From assembly GCA_017938205.1 (NCBI GenBank), contig JAGBCA010000054.1:1-33996 (forward strand): a DNA stretch of 33,996 nucleotides, in the 5' to 3' direction. The notes beneath the pieces are model-generated. The model was not told where the DNA came from and did no database searches. It saw nothing but the letters and a program-made list of their open reading frames with translations. Positions 7,313-25,974 of the stretch are shown here, one piece after another (within the stretch, counting starts at the first letter, position 1; each line of letters begins with the position of its first letter). The position numbers and the translations under genes were made by a program. This stretch comes from Clostridia bacterium. GTDB taxonomy: Bacteria; Bacillota; Clostridia; Oscillospirales; CAG-272.

Positions 7313-7362
7313 AAAAATCTCCATTCTGCTTTTTCGGGGCCGATATCCCCGTTCGTATTTTC

Positions 7363-7368
7363 ATTATA
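7363..7368 (-). promoter_or_regulatory. Probable -10 element for GH20 copy 1
   Basis: TATAAT on the minus strand, 50 bases upstream of the start codon. No good -35 lies at 17 bases, which suggests dependence on an activator. The rest of the interval up to 7521 is AT-rich with no other feature seen. Confidence 0.45.
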
Positions 7369-7523
7369 CCACAACTCTTCCGATGAGGAAAGGTCAAAAA
7401 ATGATTTTTTCGTGTCAATTTTTGTGATGTGTCATTTTTCGTTGCTTCCTGCATCATTGTATCACGAAAAAGGGAAAATGTATGTATTTTTTATTTCATA
7501 AAGAGGGATTCTTGTTTCAAATT

Positions 7524-7563
7524 AAAAAAACAAACGGCCGTCCCGAAGAAACGGAGCGGCCGT
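7524..7563 (-). terminator. Terminator of GH20 copy 2
   Basis: On the minus strand ACGGCCG (complement of 7557-7563) pairs with CGGCCGT (7534-7540) with further CCG/CGG pairing inside, followed by TTGTTTTTTT. It lies 16 bases after the stop codon. Confidence 0.8.
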
Positions 7564-7579
7564 AGCCGGTATTGAAAAA

Positions 7580-9205: not shown

Positions 9206-9269
9206 TTTCAGGTCTCCTTTAAGCTTTGGTTTTTGAATATTTTGTAAGCAATTATTTGCAAATATGAGC

Positions 9270-10166
9270 TTAACAGCAGTCGATGTCGGGAGAAAATTCG
9301 GGCGGAGCGATAACGGCGGTTTTGATCTCCGGCTCACTTTCCGGCTTTCCTTCGTTAGCCTTTTTCCATTCGCCGGGCGGACAGCCGTGCTCCTTTTTGA
9401 AGCAACGGGAGAAGTATTCCACGTCCGAAAAGCCGCAGAGCAGCGCGATCTCCTTGACCGATTGATTGGTCTCACGGAGAAGCTTTTCGGCCTGCGCCAT
9501 GCGCTTTTTCATTACGTATTCCATCACCGTGATTCCGAATTCCTTGCGGAAATGCTCCGTGATCGTCACGGTGGAACAATGCAGATGCCAGGAAAGATCG
9601 GCCAAGGTGATCTTGTCCGCAAGATGGGTGCGGATGTAGTCCTTTGTTTGCCGCGCGATGGAGGGCAGCGCATCCTCGAAAAGATTGCTCCTTGCGATCT
9701 CCTCCGCGATCAGGGTGAGAATGGCGTGATAGGCGCGAAAATCCTCGCTTGAAAGGTGCGGCATACCCCCAACCTCCCTCAGCACCTCTTTATAGGAAAG
9801 GGTGGGAGCGATCGAAAGGATATGGTGGGCAATGGCCTCGTCATCCCCGTCCACGATGCCCATCGAGCAGAAGATGTAGCCGAGCTTTTCATCGTTTTTC
9901 ATGATGGGAATGTGCGTTTTCGTCATACCGAAGGGGCAGATGTAGATCAGGGGCTCGCGGCTCTCGCCTGCAAGCGCAAAGCGCTCCTTATCCGATGCGC
10001 GGCACATATCGAGGCAGATCGGCGCGCGGTGGATCATCGTGCAAAGATTGCCCGGCAGGCTGCGCTTGCTCGTAACGGTGCGGAAGCTTGTATTTTGCAC
10101 CACGACCTCCATACCCGAAATTTGATAAAAGTGACGGATCAGATCCTCGGCTCTTTTATTGGACAC
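9270..10166 (-). CDS. AraC-family regulator with PocR-type sensor domain
   Basis: A 298-aa transcription factor. Residues about 8-150 look like a PocR ligand-binding domain, with the cysteine pattern C51-x3-C55 and C77 in YICPFG. PocR domains are PAS-like sensors for small hydrocarbon or sugar-derived ligands. Residues about 168-268 are the AraC double helix-turn-helix (ITLADLSWHLHCSTVTITEH and SVKEIALLCGFSDVEYFSRC). A Ser/Glu/Pro-rich tail ends in two cysteines. The start is GTG (10164-10166), supported by AGGAGGT upstream. It is first in an operon with GH20 copy 2 and divergent from a Gfo/Idh/MocA gene, so it probably activates one or both in response to a glycan-derived ligand. Confidence 0.85.
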   Translation of the reverse strand: MSNKRAEDLIRHFYQISGMEVVVQNTSFRTVTSKRSLPGNLCTMIHRAPICLDMCRASDKERFALAGESREPLIYICPFGMTKTHIPIMKNDEKLGYIFCSMGIVDGDDEAIAHHILSIAPTLSYKEVLREVGGMPHLSSEDFRAYHAILTLIAEEIARSNLFEDALPSIARQTKDYIRTHLADKITLADLSWHLHCSTVTITEHFRKEFGITVMEYVMKKRMAQAEKLLRETNQSVKEIALLCGFSDVEYFSRCFKKEHGCPPGEWKKANEGKPESEPEIKTAVIAPPEFSPDIDCC

Positions 10167-10194
10167 GGACGGCTACCTCCTCTCTTTTAATGCC

Positions 10195-10223
10195 ATTATA
10201 GCAGATAAATTCAGACTTTGCAA
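10195..10223 (-). promoter_or_regulatory. Promoter of the PocR-AraC / GH20 operon
   Basis: On the minus strand TTGCAA (10218-10223), a 17-base spacer and TATAAT (10195-10200) preceded by TG (extended -10). Confidence 0.7.
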
Positions 10224-10321
10224 TAGATTTTCAAAAAATAGCACTGTAATATCAAAAAGACATCTTTTATCGATTTTCCATGCTTCTTTATGGATTTGTC
10301 ATTCCATTTGCGATCTGCCTT

Positions 10322-10330
10322 TGCTATAAT
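10322..10330 (+). promoter_or_regulatory. Extended -10 promoter of the Gfo/Idh/MocA gene
   Basis: TGCTATAAT on the plus strand. No consensus -35 lies 17 bases upstream, so activation by the divergent AraC protein is plausible. The divergent minus-strand promoter has the same TGCTATAATGG core. Confidence 0.55.
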
Positions 10331-10379
10331 GGTCTTGTACTTAAATTTAGCGGCACCGCCGCGGAAAGAGGAAAAACAA

Positions 10380-11423
10380 ATGAGAGAAATGAAGGATCTT
10401 GTAGTTGCCGTCGTTGGTCTGCGCTTCGGCGCACAGCACCTCAAGGGCGTGATCGAGAACGGTGCAACCGTTGGCATGATCTGCGATAAGAATGCAGACA
10501 GACTGAACGAGGTTGGCGAGGAGTGCGGCATTCCCGCAGAGAAGAGAACCACCGAGCTGCAGGACATTCTTGATAACAAGGAGATCGAGGTCGTTATCCT
10601 TGCAACCCCTGATATGACGCATAAGGATCAGATCGTTGCGCTCCTGAATGCAGGCAAGCACGTGCTTTGCGAGAAGCCCCTTGCGCTGGAAAAGAGCCAT
10701 CTTGACGAAATCGTTGCCGCTGTAAAGGCGCATCCCGAGTGCAAGTTCATGGTTGGCCAGATCTGCCGCTTCACCCCTGCCTTCGTGATGGCAAAGGAGA
10801 TCATCGACTCCGGCCGCGTTGGCGAGATCTACTTCGTAGAGTCCGAGTATGCGCATGACTACGAGGCGATCTTCAACGATCCCACCCGTCAGTGGAGAGC
10901 GGATCCCAAGCGTCACGGCGTGATCGGCGGCGGCTGCCATGCAGTTGACCTGCTCCGTTGGCTCGTTGGCGGCGATCCCTACGATATTTACGCATACGGC
11001 ACGCATAAGATGCTGAAGCAGCTTCCCTATGACGATTCCACTCTTGCGATCATGAAGTTCCCCGGCGACATCATGGGTAAGGTATTCGTTTCCACGGGCT
11101 GCAAGCGCGGCTACACGATGCGCACGCTCGTATACGGCACGAAGGGAACGCTCATTTTCGACAATAAGTCCGAGACGATGTCCTTCTTCGAGGTAAATCC
11201 CGAGGATCCCAACCACAAGGCAGAGGAGAAGATCCTTCCCGTGGATGTAAACAACCACAATGCGGCATCCGAGTTCAAGACCTTTGCGGATCACATCCTG
11301 AACGATACCCCCGTAACCACGGACGTAATGGAGGGTGCAAAGACCGCTCTTGCCTGCATCGCGATCGTGGATTCCTCCATGACCGGAAAGATTATTAGCC
11401 CCGACTACACCTTTGGTGCATAA
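10380..11423 (+). CDS. Gfo/Idh/MocA-family oxidoreductase
   Basis: A 347-aa NAD(P)-dependent sugar or cyclitol oxidoreductase. The N-terminal Rossmann fold has an atypical nucleotide loop (VVGLRFGAQH, residues 12-20) instead of GxGxxG, then the family EKP motif at 98-100 (HVLCEKPLAL). The C-terminal substrate domain carries GGGCHAVDLLRW with H187 and D190, the usual catalytic/binding pair. The start ATG 10380 has GAGG 8 bases before it; the reading frame is open further upstream but only across the promoter. It is divergent from the PocR-AraC regulator and near the tandem GH20 genes, so it probably acts on a hexosamine-derived or other released sugar. Some Gfo/Idh enzymes are NAD-dependent glycosidases (GH109); that alternative cannot be excluded. 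Very GC-rich codon use. Confidence 0.88.
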   Translation: MREMKDLVVAVVGLRFGAQHLKGVIENGATVGMICDKNADRLNEVGEECGIPAEKRTTELQDILDNKEIEVVILATPDMTHKDQIVALLNAGKHVLCEKPLALEKSHLDEIVAAVKAHPECKFMVGQICRFTPAFVMAKEIIDSGRVGEIYFVESEYAHDYEAIFNDPTRQWRADPKRHGVIGGGCHAVDLLRWLVGGDPYDIYAYGTHKMLKQLPYDDSTLAIMKFPGDIMGKVFVSTGCKRGYTMRTLVYGTKGTLIFDNKSETMSFFEVNPEDPNHKAEEKILPVDVNNHNAASEFKTFADHILNDTPVTTDVMEGAKTALACIAIVDSSMTGKIISPDYTFGA

Positions 11424-14819: not shown

Positions 14820-16598
14820 TTAAACCAAGATCATTTTCTCAAGCTCTGCTTGTCTTGCATCCAAAATGCCGAGGAAGGATCGCACGCCCTCCTCATAATT
14901 CTGTGCTTTCCAAAGGGCTTCAAATTCACCCTTCAGCGTTTCGATCAGAGAGATCAGCGCCCTTGCCTTTTCTTCGCCGATCTCCTCGCCCATACGCAGC
15001 TTGCAAAGCTCGGCCGCCAAAATAACGGATGTTGCGCCCACGGCGATCTCTTGGAGATACATTTTGTCAACGGCAAGCGCTTGGACCTCTTCGAGGATCT
15101 CGTTTACGTAGCGGATCACGTTGTTAAAATAGAACGCATCGCCGCAGGCCTCAAGATCGAAAAACGCGCCGTAGCTCGTTTTGTCAAGCGGTTGCCAAAG
15201 CGTCATGCCACACATCGTTCCGAGACGCACGCGCTCGGGCTCGAGCAGATGGTAATTTCCGAGGCGGTGCAGGTGCTTGGAAATGCTTTCGCCGCCGAAA
15301 ATGAAAAAGTCCAGAAATTTTTCAGAGAGCCTTTCAAAGTAGGTCTCCATAATGAGTCCCTTTTGCTCCTGTTCGATGTTCCAGAAATGCTGGCCGCCGA
15401 GGGCAATGGGCAGATAGCTCCAGATCAGGGAGTGCGGATGTCCCTCCTGATCCATGCTCCAATCGGTGAGCATACAGCCCTTTGCGCCGTACATTCTGCC
15501 AAGCTCCGCGCTCGTGCGGATGTTGTAGGCCGAAACCTCAAACCGCCCCGTCAGGCTGAAATGCGTATTGCAGGAGGGACACATATAAAAGCGGATCCCT
15601 TTTTCTTTCAGAAAGCGGCAATGCCCCTCCATAATGCGCTCATTGCGAAGCTCGTAGCCCCATTCCAAAAGGGTGGCATCCTTTGGCAGTCTTGCCAGCG
15701 TTTCGGGGTAGCCGATGATCATATCCGACCAGAACTGCACGCGCTTTCCGTGCTTTTTCCGAATATAGTCCGCAACGCGGCAGAGATGCTCCATAAAAAG
15801 GGTGTCCTTGCCGTGCTTTTTGCAGTATTCCTCCAGCTGAAATCTTCCGAGCCCGTAAGCCTCGTCCAGCCCAATGTTCACGCTGTCCGAGGAAAAGCTT
15901 GGGAGAAGGGAATCGAAGATCTTCTCCAAAAGCTCTTGCGCCTCGGGGAGCAGAGGATTGATTGTAAATGTCCTCTCCTTGCCGTCCGATACCTCCAGCG
16001 CCTTGTATTCCTCTCTTTCAAGCCAAGCGCCCATATGCCCAAGGCAGTTCTGGTTGGGAACGAGGTCGATAAAACGGTCGCGGCAGTAGGCATCAAGCTC
16101 TTTTATGTCCTCGGGGGTAAGGCAGTCAAAGCCCTCGGTCACCTCGGGGAAGAGGGGATAGGCAAAGCAGAAGTTCTCCATATAGAGCTGAAATTCATTG
16201 TATTTGAGGAGCGCAAGCAGGTCGATCAGCCGCTTGATCGTTTCGGGCTTCGGCATTCGTCCACGGCTGATGTCAAGCATATAGGCACGCCTTTCAAAGT
16301 CGGGCCTATCCGAAACGGTTGCAAAAGCGATCTCGCCGTTTCCTCTTTTATAGATCTGAAAAAGGGAGGTAACGGCACGGAACGCGCCCTCGTCGCACGA
16401 TGAGAGGATGCGAACGCCCGTCTCTTCGATGTGAAGGGTGTACGCCTCCTTTTCAAGTGCCATATCCTTTATAAAAACGATTTCTCCCGAGGTCAGGCAG
16501 GCAAGGTAAAAGGCATAGAGATCTCTGTCTGCCATCTTGTTTTTGAAATGATATGTGCCCTCATGGGCGGTGTATGCTTTTGGGGTTGGAAATATCAT
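14820..16598 (-). CDS. GH20 hexosaminidase-like enzyme with N-terminal domain
   Basis: A 592-aa GH20-like enzyme, distinct from the two tandem copies. Residues about 1-110 match the alpha/beta GH20b-type domain that precedes many hexosaminidases (AFRAVTSLFQIYKRG). The barrel starts near 125 (RAYMLDISRGRMPKPETI) and carries the catalytic D245-E246 pair in NIGLDEAYGLG. LLEWGY and WSDMIIGYP are later barrel strands. After about residue 430 a helical C-terminal part follows. No signal peptide, so cytoplasmic. The ATG at 16598 has AAAGGTG upstream. It is 41 bases downstream of the GH99-like gene on the same strand and is probably its operon partner. A substrate with a terminal N-acetylhexosamine is expected, by family. 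Confidence 0.85.
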   Translation of the reverse strand: MIFPTPKAYTAHEGTYHFKNKMADRDLYAFYLACLTSGEIVFIKDMALEKEAYTLHIEETGVRILSSCDEGAFRAVTSLFQIYKRGNGEIAFATVSDRPDFERRAYMLDISRGRMPKPETIKRLIDLLALLKYNEFQLYMENFCFAYPLFPEVTEGFDCLTPEDIKELDAYCRDRFIDLVPNQNCLGHMGAWLEREEYKALEVSDGKERTFTINPLLPEAQELLEKIFDSLLPSFSSDSVNIGLDEAYGLGRFQLEEYCKKHGKDTLFMEHLCRVADYIRKKHGKRVQFWSDMIIGYPETLARLPKDATLLEWGYELRNERIMEGHCRFLKEKGIRFYMCPSCNTHFSLTGRFEVSAYNIRTSAELGRMYGAKGCMLTDWSMDQEGHPHSLIWSYLPIALGGQHFWNIEQEQKGLIMETYFERLSEKFLDFFIFGGESISKHLHRLGNYHLLEPERVRLGTMCGMTLWQPLDKTSYGAFFDLEACGDAFYFNNVIRYVNEILEEVQALAVDKMYLQEIAVGATSVILAAELCKLRMGEEIGEEKARALISLIETLKGEFEALWKAQNYEEGVRSFLGILDARQAELEKMILV

Positions 16599-16639
16599 AT
16601 TTGCACACCTTTGTTTGCATTTTTATGGTAAAACAGCCT

Positions 16640-17770
16640 TTATTCGCCAAATACTTCCTTCACGGCATCGAGATAGCCGTAGCCGAAAAGATCGTCCGGC
16701 TCAAGGTAACTGCCCTCCGTCCATTCGTTCCAGCTGTTGATGGTAACGAGCGGCACGCGGTCGGGATGCGTTTCTAAAAATGCTTTTGCGTTCATCAGCG
16801 CTTTTTTGAAAAGCGCGGGACAAGCACCCTCCAGCTGCACGGTTTTGACGGATCTGAAGCGCGGATTGTTATCCCATCCGCAAGAGACCTGCGGAAAATA
16901 CGGCACGGGACTGTCACCGTTCAGGCGCTCCCAGCCCTCCGCCGCCTTTTCCACCGCATCGGCATACGTACCCCATGGCTTTTCGAGAACGTTCACCATC
17001 TGATAGTTGGTGCAGCTTTCAAAGCCGAAATAGCGTATGACCTCGTCGATCGTCATGTGGCGGTCGCCGTCGTGAATGTCATAGCAGACCTTGTGCATAT
17101 TCAGCTGCAGGTGCACGCCCTTCAACCCCTTTTCCACGCATCGGCTTTTCAGCCAATCGAGCGCCTCCTTGGTTTTTTGAACGCCGCCGAGCCCTTCGAT
17201 GAGAATGGGTAGGGTGAAGATCATAAAAACCGGCTTTCCGTCGATCATGTAGTATCTCGGATGCTTGAAATACCGATCGATCAGCCGATCGGCGACGGCC
17301 TCAAACTGCTCTCTTGAAACGCGGCCGGTGTAGAGCATACTCCGGTTCAGCTGCTCTAAGGTATAGTCGCCCTCCATGTCGCTGTTTCGTATATCCCAGC
17401 TGTAGCCGATGTTATGGTTGGCCCACATGATGTAGAATTTCATGCGGTCGTTGTTGGAGGCCTTCAAAAAGCCGTCGTTTAAGCAGTTTTCAAGGAAGGG
17501 GCGTCCATCGTACCAATACCAGTCGTAGATAAATACGTTCACGCCGTGGCTTACCGCCTCGTCGATCTCCATTTCCATCACGGACTTATCCGCCTCGTTC
17601 ACGTAGCCCCACAGGGGCTTTCTCGGCCACTTATGGCCTTCGAATTTCGGCCGCGCGTTTTGAACGGCCTCCCATTCTCCGATGCCCTTCGGCCAGAAGA
17701 TCCTCGTTCGCAGCTCATCGCCCGTATATGCAGGCCAAACGAAGGCCGCCACGTCAAATTTCCGTTTCAT
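16640..17770 (-). CDS. GH99-like / WbsX-family glycan enzyme
   Basis: A 376-aa protein of the WbsX/GH99-like family. Diagnostic features are the opening AAFVWPAYTGDE, VFIYDWYWYDG near residue 80, HPRYYMIDGKPVFMIF in the middle and the C-terminal signature INSWNEWTEGSYLEPDD. Related domains are endo-alpha-mannosidase-like (GH99) or are found in O-antigen loci, where the reaction is not established. It lacks a signal peptide or lipobox. The ATG at 17770 follows AAGGAGC. It lies between the Gfo/Idh/MocA gene and the GH20 gene, with its own promoter, so it likely cleaves a mannose- or glucose-containing part of the same glycan. Substrate is inference. Confidence 0.85.
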   Translation of the reverse strand: MKRKFDVAAFVWPAYTGDELRTRIFWPKGIGEWEAVQNARPKFEGHKWPRKPLWGYVNEADKSVMEMEIDEAVSHGVNVFIYDWYWYDGRPFLENCLNDGFLKASNNDRMKFYIMWANHNIGYSWDIRNSDMEGDYTLEQLNRSMLYTGRVSREQFEAVADRLIDRYFKHPRYYMIDGKPVFMIFTLPILIEGLGGVQKTKEALDWLKSRCVEKGLKGVHLQLNMHKVCYDIHDGDRHMTIDEVIRYFGFESCTNYQMVNVLEKPWGTYADAVEKAAEGWERLNGDSPVPYFPQVSCGWDNNPRFRSVKTVQLEGACPALFKKALMNAKAFLETHPDRVPLVTINSWNEWTEGSYLEPDDLFGYGYLDAVKEVFGE

Positions 17771-17803
17771 ATATGCTCCTTCGGGTAAGATCTCTTTATC
17801 CGT

Positions 17804-17832
17804 AGTATATCACAGTCTTTGTCGGAATGCAA
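17804..17832 (-). promoter_or_regulatory. Promoter of the GH99-like / GH20 genes
   Basis: On the minus strand TTGCAT (17827-17832), 17 bases, TATACT (17804-17809) with TG one base upstream. It lies 33 bases before the GH99-like start codon. Confidence 0.65.
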
Positions 17833-17847
17833 TAGAGCTTCTTTTGC

Positions 17848-19104
17848 TTATGCGTGCACCTTGACGAGCGCGCCGCCCGCCTTGCGGGATTCCTCGGCGG
17901 CAATGCCCATCAGATGGCATTCCACGGACTTTGCAAGCGAGGTCGTCATATCGCGCGTACCCGTCAGCATCTCGTAAAGCGCATCAATGATCGCGCTGTC
18001 ACCGCCGCCATGGCCGATGCTGCCCTTGATCAGATCGCCGATCTTGATGACGGTCTTTTTCTTGCCGAAGGGGAGAATTTGGATCTCGTCCATGCGCTCG
18101 TCAAGAATGATCTCGCCGTAGGTGCCGTAGAAGGTGATGCGCCTGCCGGAGGCTTCGGCAAAGATCATCTTCAGCGAGGCGTGAATGCCGTTTTTGAAGG
18201 TCATCTGCACCATCTGATGGTCGATCATATCCACCCTCTGCTTGAAGGCACAACGGCCAAATTCGTGTGTTTTGATGCCTTCAATGAGGTTTTTCTCGGT
18301 CGTGGGGTAGACGAGGCTGATCTTGTTGAAGGGCCAATCAAATTTCGGCTCGCCCGCTTCGTGCCAGGCATCGATATAGATGCGCTTTGCGCTGTAGGGG
18401 CAGGTGTCCTTGTGGATGCATTCAAAGCAACGGTCGGCCGCACCCTCGGGTGCGTTTTCTTTCTTAAAGAAGCTAAGGTCGCCGATCGAGGAAAGCGTGT
18501 CGCACTCGCTGTCCGCATAGCCGACGAGGATGTCCAAGTCGTGGCAGCATTTTGCGAGGATCGCAGGGTGCGAAAGCTCCATATTCGCCCACATGCCCTT
18601 CACGTAGGCCTGCGACCAATGCCAATAGGCAACGCGCTCGTTGGCATCGATGGCGTAAAGCTTGCCGATCGTGCCGCTTTTTATCAGCTCGCCGCACTTC
18701 ACGAAGGCGGGCGCATAGCGAAGCACGTGGCAGATGATGATCTTGCCGCCGTACTTTTTCTGTGCCTTGACGAGCGCATCGATCTCCTCGCGGCTGTCGC
18801 TGATCGGCTTTTCAAGAAGAATATCATAGCCGAGCGCAAGTGCCTTCAGCGCTTGGGGCACGTGCACTCTGTCGGGCGATGCGATCACTACAACGTCGGC
18901 GCGCTTTTCTTTGAAAAATTCCTCGGGATCTGAAAATACCGATGCGCTCTTTAGGGAAAGCACGCTTTTCATTTTTTCGATCTGTGCGGGGTTTGGATCG
19001 CAAAGCGAAACGATCTCGTATTGATCGGGGTTCTTTGCCATATTTTCAGAGTAGGAAAGACCTCTGTTTCCGCAGCCGCAGATGGCAACCGTAAACTTTT
19101 TCAT
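17848..19104 (-). CDS. Gfo/Idh/MocA-family oxidoreductase with Cys cluster
   Basis: A 418-aa NAD(P)-dependent oxidoreductase. The nucleotide loop GCGNRG (10-15) and the EKP motif (98-100, LLEKPISDS) are classical, and KCCHDLDILVG carries the H188/D191-type substrate residues. An insertion near 224-238 contains C226, C229 and C235 (CFECIHKDTCPYS), followed by a long segment before the C-terminal strands (HGGGDSAIIDALYEM). C186 and C187 add to the unusual cysteine count. A metal site is possible. The start ATG 19104 with AGAGGT upstream is preferred over the upstream in-frame codons. It is the first gene of the minus-strand run and faces an AraC gene across an operator-like region. Substrate is unknown, presumably a sugar from the neighbouring glycosidases. 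Confidence 0.88.
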   Translation of the reverse strand: MKKFTVAICGCGNRGLSYSENMAKNPDQYEIVSLCDPNPAQIEKMKSVLSLKSASVFSDPEEFFKEKRADVVVIASPDRVHVPQALKALALGYDILLEKPISDSREEIDALVKAQKKYGGKIIICHVLRYAPAFVKCGELIKSGTIGKLYAIDANERVAYWHWSQAYVKGMWANMELSHPAILAKCCHDLDILVGYADSECDTLSSIGDLSFFKKENAPEGAADRCFECIHKDTCPYSAKRIYIDAWHEAGEPKFDWPFNKISLVYPTTEKNLIEGIKTHEFGRCAFKQRVDMIDHQMVQMTFKNGIHASLKMIFAEASGRRITFYGTYGEIILDERMDEIQILPFGKKKTVIKIGDLIKGSIGHGGGDSAIIDALYEMLTGTRDMTTSLAKSVECHLMGIAAEESRKAGGALVKVHA

Positions 19105-19169
19105 AAGTATTACCTCTTTGTTTTTCATAATCATTGTTGCGGTCGGCGTTTTGAGCCGCCGCTACTATG

Positions 19170-19216
19170 ATTGTAGCACGGAACGCATATAACTTACCAA
19201 CACAATCATATAACTT
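19170..19216 (-). promoter_or_regulatory. AraC-type operator and activator-dependent promoter
   Basis: Two exact copies of CATATAACTT at 19186-19195 and 19207-19216 are 21 bases apart, two helical turns, as for AraC-family direct half-sites. On the minus strand the -10 is TACAAT (19170-19175). The position expected for the -35 (19193-19198) is poor (GGTAAG) and overlaps the proximal copy, the layout of a class II activated promoter. The divergent AraC protein is the natural candidate regulator. Confidence 0.6.
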
Positions 19217-19230
19217 TTCGCAACAATATG

Positions 19231-19260
19231 TTGACAAGCGAATGCCGTCTGTGTTATCAT
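19231..19260 (+). promoter_or_regulatory. Promoter of the AraC regulator at 19298
   Basis: TTGACA (19231-19236), an 18-base spacer and TATCAT (19255-19260) with TG upstream. The strong -35 contrasts with the weak divergent promoter. Confidence 0.6.
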
Positions 19261-19297
19261 TATTTTGTAAAATAAAAGGAAAAACGAGGTGAATTTC

Positions 19298-20110
19298 GTG
19301 AAAACCGTATCTCCGGAAGAGCTTTTTCGATATAATTATTCGGTACAGCCGATCAATTCCCTCAGACAGTATTGGCGCTTTGGAAAAACCTTTTCCTGCC
19401 TGAACAAAGCGAAGGTGCAGAATATATTCGTTTTTCTGAATGGGTGCTCGGCCGTATATACGGATGCGGACGGAAGGACCGCAAAGGCGGAATCGGGCGC
19501 GCTGATCTATGCGCCCGAGGGCATACGCTACTCTGCGCGCTTTTCGGATTTTGAAAGTGAAAACGCTTGCACTGTGGGGATCAATTTCCGCTTGTTTGAA
19601 GAAGCGGGAGAGCCGCTGATCTTTGAGAATGAGATCAAGGTTTACAGAAACGCGGCCTTTCGCGAGCTTGTGGAAAAGATCGACCGCGCGGACAGAGGCA
19701 CCGTGCCCTGCTATGCCGCCATGAAATCCGGGATCTACGATATCATTTCCATCCTCGGAAGCACGCAGAGCACGCTCGAGGATAAATACAAGGTGATCGG
19801 GAAGGGAATCGAGGCGCTGGAGGGCGGAAATTTCACGGCGTCGATCGAGGATCTTGCCGAGGCCTGCAACGTAAGCGTCAGCTATTTCAGACGGCTTTTC
19901 AAGGAATACAGCGGCGTATCTCCGATGGAGTACCGTATGCAAGCTAAGATCGCCAAGGCGAAGGACTATCTTTGCCAAACGCATCTGAATTCTTCCGAGA
20001 TCGCGGATCTGCTCTCTTTTAGTGACACCTCGTTTTTCTGCCGATATTTTAAAAGAGTGGTGGGCGTATCCCCCGAGGCGTTTCGGAAGGATCATAAAAA
20101 AAGCGGCTGA
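19298..20110 (+). CDS. AraC-family regulator with cupin-type sensor
   Basis: A 270-aa regulator. Residues about 30-110 form an AraC-type cupin sensor (IFVFLNGCSAVYTDADG, GALIYAPEGIRYS). Residues about 165-263 form the two helix-turn-helix motifs (SIEDLAEACNVSVSYFRRLF and NSSEIADLLSFSDTSFFCRY), ending in the family run VVGVSPEAFRKD. The start is taken as GTG 19298 with GAGGTG just upstream; GTG 19289 with AAGGA is an alternative adding three residues. The gene is divergent from the Gfo/Idh/MocA-GH99-GH20 cluster and probably activates it through the paired CATATAACTT sites. The last two bases before the stop, and the stop itself, come from the duplicated fragment that starts at 20104, so the original C-terminus may have been slightly different. 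Confidence 0.87.
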   Translation: MKTVSPEELFRYNYSVQPINSLRQYWRFGKTFSCLNKAKVQNIFVFLNGCSAVYTDADGRTAKAESGALIYAPEGIRYSARFSDFESENACTVGINFRLFEEAGEPLIFENEIKVYRNAAFRELVEKIDRADRGTVPCYAAMKSGIYDIISILGSTQSTLEDKYKVIGKGIEALEGGNFTASIEDLAEACNVSVSYFRRLFKEYSGVSPMEYRMQAKIAKAKDYLCQTHLNSSEIADLLSFSDTSFFCRYFKRVVGVSPEAFRKDHKKSG

Positions 20111-20402: not shown

Positions 20403-21374
20403 TCAATAGCCAACCTTCTCCCAGCATTCAAACGGAGCGGCAAGCTCATCGCTGATGTAGACCTGGGTTTTCTTGGTCTGAAGCATTGTGCTGGGGAGAT
20501 ATGGGGTGATCGGGCCGTGCGTGCACAGACGGGAGGTCATTCTTTGCCAGGAGGAGAAGGTGCCGCAGGTAGCCAGCGCGTGCACCTCGATGCGCTCCTT
20601 GGCGCGCATAACGTCGATCGGGCCGATGGTTGCGGCTTTGGGCGGTACGTTAGCGATATCGCCGGACTGACCGAACGTACCGTTGAGAGAGTTCTGCATG
20701 ATGGTCATAGGGTGCAGGGTAACAATCTGTGCGGGTTGGTTGAGCCATTCCTCAATGTCACCTGAGCCGATAAACTCCGGAATCGGATCAACGAATGCCA
20801 TGTGTCCTGCCCATCCGGGAGAGGTGGAAGCGATGTCGGCACCGCCCTCGGAAACGTCGTTGATGATCTTAGAGTAATCCGCAATATTTTCGTTTGTGGG
20901 AAAATGCACGTTTTCCATTGGCATACGGAGCTTGGGATCGATTTGGCAGTATAGGTATTTGATCATGGAATGAGCAAAGCCTGCCTCGTAGGTAATCGGC
21001 GCGATGTTGCCGTCCTCGTCAGCCCACTCATCCTCTGCAAACAGGTGCACCTTGGAGCAGTCGATCTTGAAGTAGTTGATCAGCTGTGCGAGAGGAATAT
21101 AGGTGTCGGGCTCGGGGTTGCCGAGAATCATCGTAAAGGTCTTTCCTGCCTCGGATGCCGCGCGCAAACGCTCAAACAGCGTTGCGATCAGCACGGGGTG
21201 CGGGTTCATCATAACCTTCACCTCGAATTCCGGATGCCACCATGGCTCACGCTGCTCAAGCTCCTTGCCGCTCATCTTGCGAACGCGCTCGCAGACCTCG
21301 CGGTCCTTGAACGGAACGAAGTCGGCAGGAGTAAAGCGAAACTTGGTTGCGGGATCGACGATAAAGTCTTTCAT
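20403..21374 (-). CDS. Divergent NagB-like (glucosamine-6-phosphate isomerase superfamily) protein
   Basis: A 323-aa protein of the NagB/RpiA sugar-isomerase superfamily. The phosphate-loop and turn region (FTMILGNPEPDTYIPLAQL, near residues 80-97) and the active-site segment SPGWAGHMAFVDP fit, but key residues differ. In NagB the segment reads GxDGHIAFNEP; here the Asp before Gly-His is Ala and the Glu after Phe-Asn is Asp, while the His is kept. Deaminase/isomerase activity on glucosamine-6-phosphate is therefore doubtful. ATG 21374 with AAGGAGA is chosen; the frame upstream to 21428 overlaps the nagA-like 3' end. It is last in a four-gene operon (28 bases after the NagA-like gene). It may act on an altered amino sugar, for example an oxidised one. 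Confidence 0.78.
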   Translation of the reverse strand: MKDFIVDPATKFRFTPADFVPFKDREVCERVRKMSGKELEQREPWWHPEFEVKVMMNPHPVLIATLFERLRAASEAGKTFTMILGNPEPDTYIPLAQLINYFKIDCSKVHLFAEDEWADEDGNIAPITYEAGFAHSMIKYLYCQIDPKLRMPMENVHFPTNENIADYSKIINDVSEGGADIASTSPGWAGHMAFVDPIPEFIGSGDIEEWLNQPAQIVTLHPMTIMQNSLNGTFGQSGDIANVPPKAATIGPIDVMRAKERIEVHALATCGTFSSWQRMTSRLCTHGPITPYLPSTMLQTKKTQVYISDELAAPFECWEKVGY

Positions 21375-21402
21375 GTATAGTGTCTCCTTGTTAAATAATT
21401 TT

Positions 21403-22551
21403 TTATGAAAATGCCTGCCATTTACCATTGAGCATTACGCGGCAGACCTTCATCCTGTGGTCAACGAGAACGAGATCTGCACGCTTCCCAACGGCAATCT
21501 CTCCGCGATCGAAAAAGCCCACCGCACGGCAGGGGTTGTAGGACGCAAACTTGAATACGTCAACGAGAGAAGCCCCCGTGTGTTTGATCATATTGCGGCA
21601 TGCGATATCCAACGTCATTTTTGAGCCGGCGATCTCTCCCGTGCAGTCGAAATTGATGTCGTCCACGTCATCGTATCCGGGGGGCACGGGGCCGTCGCAG
21701 GCATAGGCATCAGAGATAAGAATGATACGGTCATCACCCTTGATTCGGCGCACAAGGCGGAGCATATAGGGATCTACGTGGATGCCGCGGATGTCACAGA
21801 TCAGCTCGGCATAGATCTCGCGGTTGTAGTTCACGGCCTCGTCCACGCAGACTCCGCGGCACTCGGGGTACATGGGACGGTCACCCGTGGCATTGGTGTG
21901 ATGTGTTCCGATACGAAGCCCGTAGGGCATAAGGGCCTCGATTTGCCATGGAGACGCTTCACTGTGAGCAACGGCAAAGACGGCGGCAGGGTTCTTCGTT
22001 CTGACATCATGCACAAAGTCCATGATGTTCTCTCGCTCGGGCGCGAGTGCCCATACGCGCGCAATATCGTAGGCTGCCTCGATGATCGGCAGATGCTTGG
22101 ATGCATCGATGGGGCCCTGCCAGGGGTTGGATCCCTTATCGCAGCCGAATTTTGGGTTTAGGTAAGGGCCTTCCATATAAAGACCGCCGATATTTTCGCA
22201 TGCGGGCTCCTTCATGGCATCGCGGAGCGTATGGATCGCATCCAAATAGCCTGCGGTGTCCATGCTGAAATAGAGCGCGGGGAGCAGGGTAGTGGTGCCG
22301 TGCATCAGGTGATGGCGGCTTGCGGTTTTTGGATCGTCCTGAAAGAAGATCTTGCCGTCCGAGTGCGTGTGGATATCCACAAGCCCGGGGCCGACGTATA
22401 GTCCCTCGGCATTCACCGCGTCGCACCCCTCGGGGATCTTTGTTTTGCGCATTTCACCGTAGCCGACGATCCGTCCTTCGTTTACGAGAATGACGGCATC
22501 GGGGATAAAGTGATCGCGCATGACGAGTGTAGCGTTTTTTATAGCGATCAT
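21403..22551 (-). CDS. NagA-like N-acetylhexosamine-6-phosphate deacetylase
   Basis: A 382-aa metal-dependent amidohydrolase. Family residues are present in order: H61 and H63 in DIHTHSDG, E127 in YMEGPYLNP, H196 in AVAHSEA, H217 in GTHHTN, and catalytic D281 in ISDAYACDG. These fit the NagA branch, which removes acetate from N-acetylglucosamine-6-phosphate or related sugars in the cytoplasm. The region between 130 and 160 (KFGCDKGSNPWQGPID) is not standard for NagA, so the sugar may differ. The start ATG overlaps the stop of the ceramidase-like gene by four bases (ATGA), implying translational coupling. The next gene is NagB-like, so it is the second step of a probable amino-sugar pathway. 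Confidence 0.85.
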   Translation of the reverse strand: MIAIKNATLVMRDHFIPDAVILVNEGRIVGYGEMRKTKIPEGCDAVNAEGLYVGPGLVDIHTHSDGKIFFQDDPKTASRHHLMHGTTTLLPALYFSMDTAGYLDAIHTLRDAMKEPACENIGGLYMEGPYLNPKFGCDKGSNPWQGPIDASKHLPIIEAAYDIARVWALAPERENIMDFVHDVRTKNPAAVFAVAHSEASPWQIEALMPYGLRIGTHHTNATGDRPMYPECRGVCVDEAVNYNREIYAELICDIRGIHVDPYMLRLVRRIKGDDRIILISDAYACDGPVPPGYDDVDDINFDCTGEIAGSKMTLDIACRNMIKHTGASLVDVFKFASYNPCRAVGFFDRGEIAVGKRADLVLVDHRMKVCRVMLNGKWQAFS

Positions 22552-23900
22552 ATCTGCTTGCTCATTTCCTTCAAAAGTTGCTTGCCTTCGGCAATGATCT
22601 GCTCGGCAACGCCGGCCTTGAAGCGGGAGCTTCTTGCCTCGTATCCCCCTTCGTCATATGCCTCCTTCATAGGAAAATATCCCTCGTAGCCGTTGGTGCA
22701 GCAGCAGGGCAGAATGAGAGAGTAACCCTCTGCTTCTTTCAGACGGCGGCCAACATTCGTAAAGGGCTCGCCGGGGATGCCGATAAGGGCAACGGGGCCG
22801 ACGGTGATACCGGAAAGCACTGCGGGGAAAGCGGCGGGGCCGTTTTCAAGCAGAACCATTCTGGCCGCCTCGGCTACCACGGTGGTCAGGAGCATGCCCG
22901 TGTAGGGAAGCTCGCTGTCACGTCCTGCCTTGTGAAGGTCGTTAATGCGGCGTGCCTCGGGAATGTCCTTCTTTTTGGGCATATTGGAGGGGAGATTGAC
23001 GATCCTTTGCGCAAAGCGTACGCGGTCGGTATCAACGTATTCAACCTTGTCAAAGGCCTGAAGAACACCGCCCGTGACAACACGTGCAATGTAGCGTGCG
23101 TGACCGTAGCCGCGCGAAACGTCATCGAAATCTATAAACATATCGTTGAGGTCACCGCCCCTCGGATGTACGTTGACGTGGTTGACGTCGCCTTGTGCGC
23201 CGTTGAAGAATATACACCTTGTATTATCGAGCGTCTTTTCCACGGTCGCACGGAGGAGCCCCGGCCAGTCTGCCGAGATCTTGCAGCCGCCCACAACGTC
23301 GGGATGGCTTGCGAAGTTGACAAGGATCAGCGTTTGTGCGCCCTCGCGGTCAAAGCGGAGAACGTTGACACGCTCATCCACGTCACCGATGGGCGCAAGG
23401 ATGTCGGGGTTATTAACACCGGGGTTGGTGCGGATGCTGCCATCCTTCATGCGAAAACGGCGGATGAAGGCAATGTTCGGCGCTTCGCCGACACCGAAGC
23501 CCATCCTGGCGGGCTTCAGATCTTCAAGCGCGAATCGGGCTGCATCCGCGATTTTGTGAAAAACAAAGCGCAGGTACTCTCGCACCTTCTCACTTTCACT
23601 TCCGTCAACAAGATGAGGCGCGGTGTGTGTGTGCGTGGCTGAGATAAAGATCGCATCGGCGGGAACGCCTGTCACCTCGGCAACGTGTGCACGGAAGGCG
23701 CGGGAAAGCTCGGCACGAATCCCCAAGCTGTCCAGATTGATGAGAAGAACGCGGGTGCTGTCGTCGGCAAGCGCGAGGACGTTGATCTCGAGCTCGTCAA
23801 GAATCCCGTCGGCATTGCGCGGAATATAGTAGCCTGCAATGCTGATGCCCATCATAGGGGTGATATTGACGCGGCCGAAGCCGGCCTTTAAGGTGTTCAT
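22548..23900 (-). CDS. Neutral/alkaline ceramidase-fold protein, probable non-ceramidase hydrolase
   Basis: A 450-aa protein resembling the N-terminal zinc domain of neutral/alkaline non-lysosomal ceramidases. Zn ligands appear as H90, H92 and H96 in SATHTHTAPH and H199 in NFASHPDVVG. The ceramidase nucleophile Ser of GDVSPN corresponds here to N240 in NGAQGDVNHVN, so classical ceramide hydrolysis is unlikely. There is no signal peptide and the C-terminal ceramidase domain is absent, unlike secreted ceramidases. Proteins like this occur beside glycan genes in gut bacteria. It follows the Gfo/Idh/MocA gene after 53 bases and overlaps the NagA-like gene, so it should act on the same metabolite, perhaps as a deacylase or lactonase. 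That role is inference. Confidence 0.8.
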   Translation of the reverse strand: MNTLKAGFGRVNITPMMGISIAGYYIPRNADGILDELEINVLALADDSTRVLLINLDSLGIRAELSRAFRAHVAEVTGVPADAIFISATHTHTAPHLVDGSESEKVREYLRFVFHKIADAARFALEDLKPARMGFGVGEAPNIAFIRRFRMKDGSIRTNPGVNNPDILAPIGDVDERVNVLRFDREGAQTLILVNFASHPDVVGGCKISADWPGLLRATVEKTLDNTRCIFFNGAQGDVNHVNVHPRGGDLNDMFIDFDDVSRGYGHARYIARVVTGGVLQAFDKVEYVDTDRVRFAQRIVNLPSNMPKKKDIPEARRINDLHKAGRDSELPYTGMLLTTVVAEAARMVLLENGPAAFPAVLSGITVGPVALIGIPGEPFTNVGRRLKEAEGYSLILPCCCTNGYEGYFPMKEAYDEGGYEARSSRFKAGVAEQIIAEGKQLLKEMSKQI

Positions 23901-23953
23901 GGAAAACCTCCCAAAACATAATTTGTGCGCGGATCTATCGTTTCCTTTTATTT

Positions 23954-24997
23954 TTAAATGCCTCTGAGATCCGCGAGCTTATGGTTCTTTTCCGCGTTGT
24001 AAAGCTCCCAGATCACGCGCAGGCTGCGCAGAGCGCTTCTGCCGTCGGTGATCGGGGTTTTATGATTCAAAACGCAGTCGGTGAAATGTGCGATCTCGTG
24101 CTGCGTCATCTTGCCCGCGTCCTCATCGCGCTTCCAGACAACGGTGTATTTGCGGTTCTTGTTTTCTTCATTGTAGCCGGGGCGATGCTCGCCGTTTTCG
24201 TCATAGACGCGCACCTCACCGCCGGTATGGTCGTATTCGAGCATTCCTTTTTCGCATTGGATCTGGAAATCATAGCCGAGGCGCGTGCCTCTTGCGCCCC
24301 AGGTGGCGCCGTGATAGCCGACCGCGCCGCTTTCAAATCGGAGAATGACGGCGCTCGTGCCCTCTTTTAAGAGCCAGGGCGTGCCGATGCGCGTGCCGAC
24401 GTGCGCACCCTCCACGGGGTTGCCGAGGAAGCGGAGCATCAGGTCGATATAATGACAGCCGTGGCTGAAGAGCTGGCCGCCGCCGAGCCTTGCCGTTGCT
24501 GTCCACGTGCGCTTGTTGAGATCGCAAACGGTGAGCTGCTCGGTCCAGACCGACATCTGCATCACCCTTCCGTATTCGCCCGAATCCACGAGAGCCTTGA
24601 GCGTTTTCACGCCCGGCCAGAAGGGAACGGGATAGGCACACATCAAGGTGAGCCCGCGTGCCTCGCAGGTCTCGATCAGGGAGAGGCACTCCTCCTCGGT
24701 GTTGCAAAGCGGCTTCTCCATCAGGATATGCTTATCGCGCAGGGCGAAAAACATACCGCATTCGTAATGCAGATCGTGGGGCAACGCGATCAGCACGGCA
24801 TCCACCTCGTCCACCATTTCTTTATAATCTGTGTAAACCTTTGGGTGATTGGGAAGCTCTTGGCTCACTCTCTGCGCATTCTCGCGGTCGATATCGCAAA
24901 CGCAGACGATCGCCACGTTGTTTAACATCTGCACGCCCCTCACGTGCGCACCCATCATTTTTCCGCAGCCGATCAGGCCGATCCTTAAACGATCCAT
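23954..24997 (-). CDS. Gfo/Idh/MocA-family oxidoreductase (first gene of the NagA operon)
   Basis: A 347-aa NAD(P)-dependent oxidoreductase. The Rossmann loop GLIGCGKMMGAH, EKP at 94-96 (ILMEKPLCN) and the substrate motif LGGGQLFSHGCHYIDLML are typical. The start ATG 24997 is preferred because AGGAG lies eight bases upstream; the frame open to 25063 crosses the promoter region. It is divergent from the AraC regulator at 25150, whose promoter overlaps this one. Operon order dehydrogenase, ceramidase-fold protein, NagA-like, NagB-like suggests that a sugar is oxidised before or around deacetylation. The substrate itself is not readable from sequence. Confidence 0.88.
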   Translation of the reverse strand: MDRLRIGLIGCGKMMGAHVRGVQMLNNVAIVCVCDIDRENAQRVSQELPNHPKVYTDYKEMVDEVDAVLIALPHDLHYECGMFFALRDKHILMEKPLCNTEEECLSLIETCEARGLTLMCAYPVPFWPGVKTLKALVDSGEYGRVMQMSVWTEQLTVCDLNKRTWTATARLGGGQLFSHGCHYIDLMLRFLGNPVEGAHVGTRIGTPWLLKEGTSAVILRFESGAVGYHGATWGARGTRLGYDFQIQCEKGMLEYDHTGGEVRVYDENGEHRPGYNEENKNRKYTVVWKRDEDAGKMTQHEIAHFTDCVLNHKTPITDGRSALRSLRVIWELYNAEKNHKLADLRGI

Positions 24998-25015
24998 CTT
25001 TTTTCTCCTTTTTCG

Positions 25016-25044
25016 TTGACAAGCTTTGTTTGATATGTTATACT
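25016..25044 (+). promoter_or_regulatory. Promoter of the AraC gene at 25150
   Basis: TTGACA (25016-25021), 17 bases, TATACT (25039-25044) with TG upstream, giving a leader of about 100 bases. A tandem ATATCCAT-type repeat (CATATCCATATATCCATT) follows at 25048-25064 and may be a regulator half-site pair. Confidence 0.7.
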
Positions 25045-25061
25045 GACATATCCATATATCC

Positions 25062-25070
25062 ATTTTAGCA
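25062..25070 (-). promoter_or_regulatory. Extended -10 for the NagA-type operon
   Basis: TGCTAAAAT on the minus strand with no clear -35, overlapping the start region of the divergent AraC promoter. The overlap implies mutual influence between the two directions. Confidence 0.45.
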
Positions 25071-25149
25071 CACGAAAAGGCGCTTGTATTTACATAAATA
25101 GGGCAAAAATTTGCACGATCGGGCGTTTTTTTGAAAAGGGGAAGGGTTT

Positions 25150-25974
25150 ATGATATACGAAATGACGGAGCTTGCCGATGCGATACGGATCGATGGCATT
25201 TGTACGGTGCTGAAGGCGGATTATATGAAAAACGGCGGCGTTGGCGAATCGCACGATTTTCCCGAGCTTATGTATTGCGCGCGCGGTGAGCATTGGGGCG
25301 TGCGGGACGGCGTGGATATTTTTTTCCGAGAGGGGGAGATGACGCTGATCGCTCCCGGCACCTTTCATAAAAAGAAAAAGCCCTCCGATTGCGAGGGCTG
25401 GATCATCAGCTTTGCCTCGCGCTCGCCGATGCTGGAGGGGCTTTACAATCAAACGATCGCTTTGACGGGCGAGGAGAGGGAGGAGCTTGCCGCGGTTTTT
25501 TCATTGGGGCTTCGCTGCTTTCAAAGAAAGCCGCAGGGCGGTATGGCGGTTTCTCCCGAGGCGGACGTCTATATGCTGACGGGCCTTAAAAAGCGGCTGG
25601 AGCTTTTTCTTCTCGGGCTGCACCGCCGCTACGGAAGGGAGGTCGCGGAGGAGAAGCGGCAGGAGATCGCGGAGGTGGCGCGCGTTTGCATCCTTCTTTC
25701 CGAGCATATTGCGGAAAATCTCACCGTGGAGCAGATCGCCGCCCTTGCCAATATCTCGGTTTCCAAATTAAAGCGGCTGTTTCGGGAAAAGGGCGGCGTG
25801 CTTCACGCCTTTATCCGCATGAAGGTGGAGCGAGCGAAGGGAATGATCCGCGCGGGGCAAATGAATTTTTCCGAGATCGCGGAGGCGCTCGGCTTTGCCT
25901 CTCTCCATTATTTTTCGCGCACCTTCAGGTCTGTCACGGGGATCTCGCCGTCGCAGTATCGAAAAATTTTGTAA
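25150..25974 (+). CDS. AraC-family transcriptional regulator
   Basis: A 274-aa regulator. The N-terminal cupin-like sensor spans roughly residues 15-110 (HDFPELMYCARGEHWGV and LIAPGTFHKKKKPSDCEG). The C-terminal AraC double helix-turn-helix begins near 175 (NLTVEQIAALANISVSKLKR, then MNFSEIAEALGFASLHYFSR) and ends VTGISPSQYRKIL. The ATG at 25150 follows a GGGGAAGGG ribosome site. It is divergent from the dehydrogenase/ceramidase-fold/NagA/NagB operon and almost certainly controls it, sensing a sugar pathway intermediate by analogy with other AraC catabolic regulators. A terminator follows. Confidence 0.88.
   Translation: MIYEMTELADAIRIDGICTVLKADYMKNGGVGESHDFPELMYCARGEHWGVRDGVDIFFREGEMTLIAPGTFHKKKKPSDCEGWIISFASRSPMLEGLYNQTIALTGEEREELAAVFSLGLRCFQRKPQGGMAVSPEADVYMLTGLKKRLELFLLGLHRRYGREVAEEKRQEIAEVARVCILLSEHIAENLTVEQIAALANISVSKLKRLFREKGGVLHAFIRMKVERAKGMIRAGQMNFSEIAEALGFASLHYFSRTFRSVTGISPSQYRKIL

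Follow-up and report, generated by a model that had tools for sequence, protein, structure and literature searches.

An operon from a Clostridia bacterium predicted to catabolise an N-acylated amino sugar, with a NagB homologue that lacks the 6-phosphate site

The 33,996-nucleotide stretch of DNA analyzed here (the window) is the entire contig JAGBCA010000054.1 of a Clostridia bacterium, taken from a draft genome (GCA_017938205.1) of 2.36 Mb that is 84% complete. Below, C numbers denote contigs of this genome (G000, in which the window is C49) and L numbers the loci with which it was compared. Four minus-strand genes at 24997-20403 encode, in order, a Gfo/Idh/MocA-family dehydrogenase (GFO1), a ceramidase-fold protein (CERA*), a NagA-like protein (NagA*) and a NagB-like protein (NagB*) (Table 1). 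An initial annotation had described this gene order and common direction, a 4-base overlap between the CERA* and NagA* genes (found at 22548-22551) and a divergent AraC-family gene, all of which we recover. GFO1 starts at the ATG at 24997, with AAGGAG upstream. The open reading frame of NagB* has candidate starts at 21428 and 21374; AAGGAG precedes the ATG at 21374, and several relatives have a stop codon near the upstream start, inside the match, so that 21374 is probably the start, in which case the NagB* and NagA* genes do not overlap. No operon promoter was identified within the intergenic region separating the operon from the AraC gene, where the best consensus match (TTGACA-17-TATACT, 25016-25044) lies on the plus strand and points towards the AraC gene. 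We propose, with a probability of about one half, that the operon catabolises an N-acylated amino sugar that would not be 6-phosphorylated when its enzymes meet it; the reactions and the kind of substrate we infer from protein family and residues. The nearest named relatives are metagenome-assembled genomes of Oscillospiraceae, Lachnospiraceae and Clostridia, whose titles refer mostly to the ruminant gut (goat, roe deer, sheep, yak, water buffalo and others), some giving no sample.

Table 1. The operon and the features around it in the window
Feature	Position	Strand	Basis
GFO1, Gfo/Idh/MocA-family NAD(P)-dependent oxidoreductase, operon gene 1	23954..24997	-	Pfam, EKP motif
CERA*, ceramidase-fold hydrolase, 450 aa, one catalytic domain	22548..23900	-	PF04734 31.5 bits; profile A2 vs PDB
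NagA*, NagA-like amidohydrolase, probable N-deacylase	21403..22551	-	TIGR00221 146 bits; PDB NagA E 1.7e-29
NagB*, NagB-like isomerase/deaminase predicted to lack the 6-phosphate site, 323 aa	20403..21374	-	Profile to PDB GlcN6P deaminases
Divergent intergenic region, operon to AraC gene	24998..25149	.	Consensus match only
AraC-family regulator, divergent from operon	25150..25974	+	Pfam HTH_AraC/HTH_18
Second AraC-family regulator, converging on operon; divergent from GFO2/WbsX/GH20 genes	19289..20110	+	Pfam
GFO2, second Gfo/Idh/MocA oxidoreductase, neighbouring set	17848..19134	-	Pfam
WbsX/GH99-like protein, neighbouring set	16640..17770	-	Pfam WbsX 172 bits
GH20 hexosaminidase, neighbouring set	14820..16598	-	Pfam Glyco_hydro_20 69 bits

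NagB* has no Pfam family and matches NCBIfam only weakly, though a profile of its family (A1) matches solved GlcN6P deaminases in the PDB (best E 3.9e-8). We compared 98 NagB* sequences of at least 290 aa (93 of them distinct) at the positions that we take, in E. coli numbering, to be the catalytic residues of NagB (Asp72 and His143), the residues beside His143 (Asp141 and Glu148) and the 6-phosphate site (the GGT loop, Arg172 and Lys208); a literature search found no paper naming both Lys208 and Arg172. The Asp72 and His143 positions are each kept in 98/98 sequences. Asp is found at the Asp141 position in none of the 98, and the Glu148 position holds Asp in 93 and Glu in 5. At the phosphate site the Arg172 position is Leu in every sequence, the position aligned with Lys208 is Gln in 97, and the GGT loop is replaced throughout, by N-P-x-P in 89, N-Q-x-P in 4 and, in 5 phylum-level sequences, V-G-P-x-P. 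This computation shows a predicted 6-phosphate site lost from NagB* with the catalytic positions retained, which bears out the altered NagB of the initial annotation. The genome also encodes a canonical-looking NagB, as two unjoined pieces at contig ends that singly fall below the TIGR00502 cut-off; these keep PTGSSP, DGHIAFNEP, NSRFF and GHNKA, and with them the loop, the Asp, the Glu, the Arg and the Lys. A scan of viral contigs with A1 returned no NagB* relative.

NagA* scores 146 bits against the TIGR00221 nagA model, under the curated cut-off of 225.65, and its best match to a NagA in the PDB has an E value of 1.7e-29. The window protein has the metal ligands listed for NagA in PMC6016474 (HxH, Glu, His, His and Asp), and so do the variants printed for 93 aligned sequences, at most the 14 most frequent for each motif. 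Of the 93, five were control rows, from which no control was drawn: three were wrong open reading frames, and the canonical NagA of C73 was poorly represented. C73 encodes this canonical NagA at 329 bits, over the TIGR00221 cut-off, and C3 encodes a further one at 234 bits. Two mycobacterial NagA enzymes are described in a section of the same study as having no activity on GlcNAc that lacks the 6-phosphate (PMC6016474), so a NagA that acted on a free sugar would represent a real change. In five loci (L074, L076, L088, L038, L134) NagB* has two or three NagA* paralogues arranged in tandem beside it, which suggests several acyl substrates.

CERA* falls just under the cut-off of Pfam Ceramidase_alk (31.5 against 32.1 bits), a cut-off that relatives in L172, L175, L246 and L247 exceed. 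A profile built from 16 CERA* relatives (A2) matches, in the PDB, human neutral ceramidase (1.1e-30) and its Pseudomonas counterpart (5.3e-29), and nothing else up to E 0.01. Residues His90, His92, Arg147, His199, Glu378, Tyr408 and Tyr420 of CERA* align with the neutral ceramidase catalytic set, in the same order His194, His196, Arg257, His303, Glu540, Tyr579 and Tyr591 of the human enzyme (numbered as chain number plus 98, an inferred offset), of which His194, His303 and Glu540 are presumably the zinc ligands; six of the seven are invariant in the A2 rows, and the seventh, His199, occurs in 90% of them or more. One study, in the portion consulted, describes His196, Arg257, Tyr579 and Tyr591 as important in neutral ceramidase and Ser354 as positioning Arg257 (PMC6952831). 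In CERA* the Ser354 position is Asn (alignment to 2zws), and at 450 aa, against ceramidase chains of 646 and 688 aa, the protein is missing the second half. Its N-terminus, judged by eye, has no evident signal peptide, and CERA* is apparently cytoplasmic, which agrees with the cytoplasmic processing suggested earlier. Elsewhere in the genome, on C25 (L201), a ceramidase-fold gene lies beside four tandem proteins of about 620 aa that resemble heparinase II/III by eye.

The gene neighborhoods indicate which of the four proteins belong together. Search patterns matched 575 stretches, 490 of which encode relatives, and the best 80 were fetched. In a first count over these 80 loci (nine genes each side, >60 bits), NagA* was near 60, CERA* near 25, YjbQ, SIS and TIM-like proteins near 25 each, FGGY near 23 and FSA near 13; a small CBM9-like protein also occurs near NagB* in 24 of them (e.g., CBM9_2, 199 aa, L077:11199-11798). 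A second count, with limits of 8 genes, 9 kb and >45 bits, took in 104 loci with 105 NagB* calls. Around the 66 well-flanked loci among these (4 kb or more on each side; the window is one of them), NagA was found near 51, CERA near 28, GFO near 6, PIG-L near 4 and DegT near 3, while FGGY and/or TIM-like, SIS or YjbQ genes were found near 35 and FGGY itself near 24. NagA lies directly upstream of NagB* on the same strand in 51/105 calls, at a median gap of 14 bases, and CERA, NagA and NagB are consecutive in 14/105, five of these with CERA and NagA sharing 4 bases. The conserved core is thus NagA-NagB, with the ceramidase-fold gene as a frequent partner. By the neighborhood check that the initial annotation proposed, conservation holds for NagA-NagB and often extends to the ceramidase-fold gene, and its claim of one pathway is supported. 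GFO1 is the least conserved member of the operon, and because it is not conserved with the others a fixed four-gene unit is rejected.

More distant relatives extend these associations. Those at 39-53% identity (L042, L043, L045, L047) have an FGGY gene nearby, and L045 and L047 have TIM-like, SIS and YjbQ genes as well. On a tree of 66 rows, 62 of which differ, the label for partner association changes 16 times, at least nine of these being forced by supported branches; the association of NagB* with its partners re-forms on the tree, though shuffling shows clustering of the label as well, and the tree has some long branches. Among 295 genomes of the order, NagB* (E <=3e-44, with weaker matches in 64 other genomes set aside) occurs in 16, the TIM-like gene in 29 and both in 11 (Fisher p 3.7e-9, uncorrected for kinship). 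Among 398 genomes of the phylum, NagB* (strong matches, five genomes with weaker ones set aside) occurs in 6, CERA in 33 and both in 6 (p 2e-7, uncorrected for kinship), a test that is biased because profile A2 includes CERA rows from four of the six NagB* genomes. The window's own genome holds TIM-like, SIS, YjbQ, FGGY and FSA genes on C60 (L156), where they are joined by an MFS transporter, a further ceramidase-fold gene and a protein whose C-terminal domain is of the L-fucose-isomerase type; by analogy, the fucose-isomerase-like enzyme and NagB* would both feed a ketose to the FGGY kinase.

Related systems would make the same combination of activities from other parts. All five phylum-level relatives (L172-L176) have a ceramidase-fold gene near NagB*. 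L172 and L173 have ABC transporter genes and a NagA-like protein; L174-L176 have PIG-L, DegT aminotransferase and GFO genes and no NagA, PIG-L in place of NagA being a non-orthologous replacement. In L174 the GFO, CERA, DegT, NagB* and PIG-L genes lie together, and in L175 and L176, which also have a ROK gene, GFO directly precedes CERA. A sister branch of NagB, without the GGT loop in the one member aligned (C72), comprises 17 genes in 21 loci, with PIG-L near 13 of the genes, GFO near 9, PfkB near 7 and CERA near 2; L053 carries PIG-L, NagB-like, GFO, CERA, PfkB and ROK genes consecutively. Three further operons in the window's genome encode NagB-like proteins without the loop, namely C72 (L050; PIG-L, GFO, NagB-like, PfkB-like), C23 (L051; two NagB-like genes, an FGGY kinase, NagA-like) and C3 (L198; NagB-like, sugar isomerase-like, GFO, NagA, some named by eye). 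That a deacetylase, a loop-less NagB and a kinase recur with differing enzyme families in the same places we regard as the best support for deamination before phosphorylation. As further observations, C23 also carries AGE-type epimerase-like, kinase-like and aldolase-like genes (some named by eye), and an Antibiotic_NAT (aminoglycoside N3-acetyltransferase) fold protein lies in the NagB*/CERA/ABC-transporter cluster of L172 (9938-10816) and L173 (1992-2852); within the phylum-level loci Pfam was run on the proteins of L172 and L175, and the Antibiotic_NAT call is that of the L172 copy.

Taken together, these data are consistent with a route in which oligosaccharides would enter the cell and intracellular GH20 hexosaminidases would release the amino sugar. 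NagA* and/or CERA*, judged by their kept metal and catalytic residues, would cleave the amide bond or bonds, and NagB* would then open the ring, move the C2 proton by means of Asp72 and His143 and release ammonia and a free ketose. Phosphorylation would come only afterwards, through an FGGY-family kinase, whose gene many relatives carry close to NagB* and this genome carries on a different contig; the phosphorylated ketose may then be processed by SIS, TIM-like and fructose-6-phosphate-aldolase-like enzymes. GFO1, in this scheme, would serve to oxidise or reduce a less common substrate. Within the open-licence literature, judged by titles and abstract openings, we recognised no description of such a pathway.

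Several observations weigh against this proposal. NagA* retains the phosphate-contacting Asn, and a conserved Arg lies close to the phosphate Arg position but out of register, the contacts in MSNagA being given as Asn212 and Arg219/220 in the part of the report consulted (PMC6016474); NagA* might still accept a 6-phosphate. Of the 66 well-flanked loci, 31 are without a nearby FGGY, TIM-like, SIS or YjbQ gene, and 9 are without NagA, CERA or PIG-L. FGGY, SIS and TIM-like are broad families, the downstream set of the window's genome is on a separate contig and not adjacent to the operon, and the TIM-like gene occurs without NagB* in 18 genomes of the order, meaning that this set is not specific to NagB*. 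The 80 named loci are closely related (79-94% identity), with some genomes met twice, and the only predicted structure, an AlphaFold model of NagB*, was weak (mean pLDDT 63.6, pTM 0.66) and was not used. Twenty further regions from the phylum sample, 19 of them with a CERA call, also bear on the question. Within five genes each side, six of the 19 CERA loci (L241, L242, L244, L246, L247, L250) resemble mannose-family phosphotransferase system (PTS) operons, in which the sugar would be 6-phosphorylated. The example in L247 (137-8332) is confirmed by Pfam, with EIIA, IIB, IIC, three SIS_2 genes, a NagA-type amidohydrolase and Ceramidase_alk; one of the SIS_2 genes is of the PRK02947 type (312.8 bits). 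Four of the 19 (L243, L244, L245, L247) have a NagA-like gene close to CERA, and as a rough control none of the CERA-locus neighbors printed matched best to TIM-like, YjbQ or FGGY, with three weak SIS matches (29-44 bits). The PTS examples suggest a link of the CERA family with amino-sugar operons generally and not with unphosphorylated sugars as such.

Among the alternatives, the one that survives best has as its substrate an N-acyl amino sugar oxidised at C3 (3-keto) or in some other way, for which the GFO1 step would be obligatory; we consider this explanation possible but doubtful. GFO1 itself is a clear family member (Pfam GFO_IDH_MocA 83 bits, with PF01408, PF22725 and PF02894 all over cut-off and the EKP motif readable in the translation), and its best NCBIfam match is UDP-GlcNAc 3-dehydrogenase, which would fit such chemistry, although at 113.6 bits against a cut-off of 450 it is not a member. 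The GFO genes of L174-L176, of L053 and of 9/17 sister NagB-type genes, and the operons of C72 and C3, in which GFO accompanies a deacetylase gene and a NagB-like one, likewise speak for it. On the other side, GFO-type genes are near only six of the 66 well-flanked NagB* loci (the window, L073, L095 and L174-L176), and GFO1 is without a close relative in the fetched loci, its best match outside the window DNA reaching 101 bits against 825 to itself. The acylated part of the earlier suggestion of an "oxidised or acylated amino sugar" is supported, while the oxidised part is unproven.

Returning to the proposed route from an unphosphorylated, N-acylated sugar, an unlikely elaboration would have it dismantle a doubly N-acylated diamino sugar, such as a 2,3-diamino-2,3-dideoxyhexose (GlcNAc3NAc). 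CERA* and NagA* or PIG-L would each take off one acyl group, the C2 amine would be removed by NagB* (or by an SIS protein in the PTS versions), and the C3 amine by GFO, alone or together with the DegT aminotransferase, through a biosynthetic pair run backwards, a C3-dehydrogenase and an aminotransferase being a known pair of this kind. Such a substrate would explain why CERA, GFO and DegT recur together (L174-L176 with PIG-L; L237 and L240), and also the PTS version in L247 with its CERA, NagA-type amidohydrolase and three SIS genes. Across the 19 further CERA loci from the phylum sample, GFO (at least 60 bits) or DegT is near CERA in seven (L236, L237, L238, L240, L242, L245, L252; a weaker GFO match in L251 was left out). 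Counting against it are 26/66 well-flanked loci that have one NagA and neither CERA nor PIG-L, beside the nine that have none of the three.

A diverged duplicate of ordinary GlcNAc-6-phosphate catabolism, with NagA and then NagB acting on 6-phosphates and the other two genes as passengers, would account for the NagA-NagB gene order and for the metal ligands and phosphate-contacting Asn of NagA*. We nevertheless judge it quite improbable and do not make it our leading reading, because an over-cut-off NagA and the canonical-looking NagB pieces lie elsewhere in the genome and NagB* has lost the loop and the Arg172 and Lys208 positions. The FGGY kinase near 24 of the 66 loci also argues against it, as does the window's own content, since none of the 17 proteins from it that were scanned with Pfam (of 26 genes called) is a sugar transporter, a PTS protein or a sugar kinase. 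The initial suggestion that ordinary GlcNAc-6-phosphate is not the substrate is, on the evidence of the NagA and NagB pieces elsewhere, probable. Very improbable, finally, is a reading in which CERA* hydrolyses lipids or fatty amides and the operon recycles an acylated amino-sugar lipid and not a small sugar, since the kept ceramidase catalytic set is offset by the Asn at the Ser354 position, the absent second half, the want of an evident signal peptide and the placing of some CERA genes of other Bacillota in sugar operons with PTS, NagA and SIS genes.

The surroundings of the operon offer a possible source of substrate. The genome has 20 GH20 matches, of which three genes, two of them GH20C-type, are in the window, and their products have no evident signal peptides when judged by eye; from this admittedly weak evidence, GH20 enzymes could possibly supply free N-acetylhexosamine (HexNAc) in the cytoplasm. 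As a conserved partner of NagB*, GH20 is ruled out, with GH20-like genes near only 6/66 well-flanked loci, the window included, so that the case for GH20 depends on this window and a few other loci. A GH20 gene, a WbsX/GH99-like gene and GFO2, with their divergent AraC gene, adjoin the operon (14820-20110). Further away, a second HexNAc-glycan gene set occupies 5687-11423, where a tandem pair of GH20C-type hexosaminidases is accompanied by an AraC/PocR-type regulator and by a third Gfo/Idh/MocA gene (10380-11423).

In the gut, the amino sugars of mucin, chitin and cell walls serve as an important source of carbon and nitrogen, and homology-based annotation tends to label genes such as these NagA, NagB and "ceramidase" as though the route were known. 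If NagB* does act on free amino sugars, it would represent a second catabolic logic, in which deamination comes before phosphorylation, and short bacterial "ceramidases" like CERA* would gain a testable function as sugar-pathway amidases.

Four known systems come closest to the operon. NagS, the GlcNAc-6P dehydratase of Streptomyces (PMC12680351), is another departure from NagA-NagB, using NagA on an unusual acylamino sugar; it is an SIS-fold enzyme, and such an enzyme is not in the window operon. Dehydration of this type is rejected here, NagS being reported as limited to Streptomycetaceae, with negligible activity in the Clostridium homologue and none in those of Paenibacillus and Acidothermus (PMC12680351). 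With neutral ceramidase (human ASAH2, PDB 4wgk; Pseudomonas, 2zws) CERA* has in common the catalytic domain and the equivalents of seven residues, but it is short, single-domain and apparently cytoplasmic, has Asn at the Ser354 position and sits in amino-sugar operons. The PIG-L/NagB-like/GFO/PfkB clusters of C72 and its relatives, of which the searches made found no characterised member, also combine a deacetylase, a NagB without the loop (checked in C72), a GFO and a sugar kinase, yet their NagB belongs to the other branch (29% identity), and they use PIG-L and not NagA, and PfkB and not FGGY. The canonical nagA-nagB operon is alike in its adjacent NagA and NagB homologues and in the deacylation and subsequent deaminating isomerisation expected of them. 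It differs in that the operon described here adds ceramidase-fold and dehydrogenase genes, in that the scanned window proteins include neither a PTS protein nor a sugar kinase, in that NagB* is predicted to lack the 6-phosphate site, and in that its relatives have an FGGY kinase and TIM-like, SIS, YjbQ and FSA partners.

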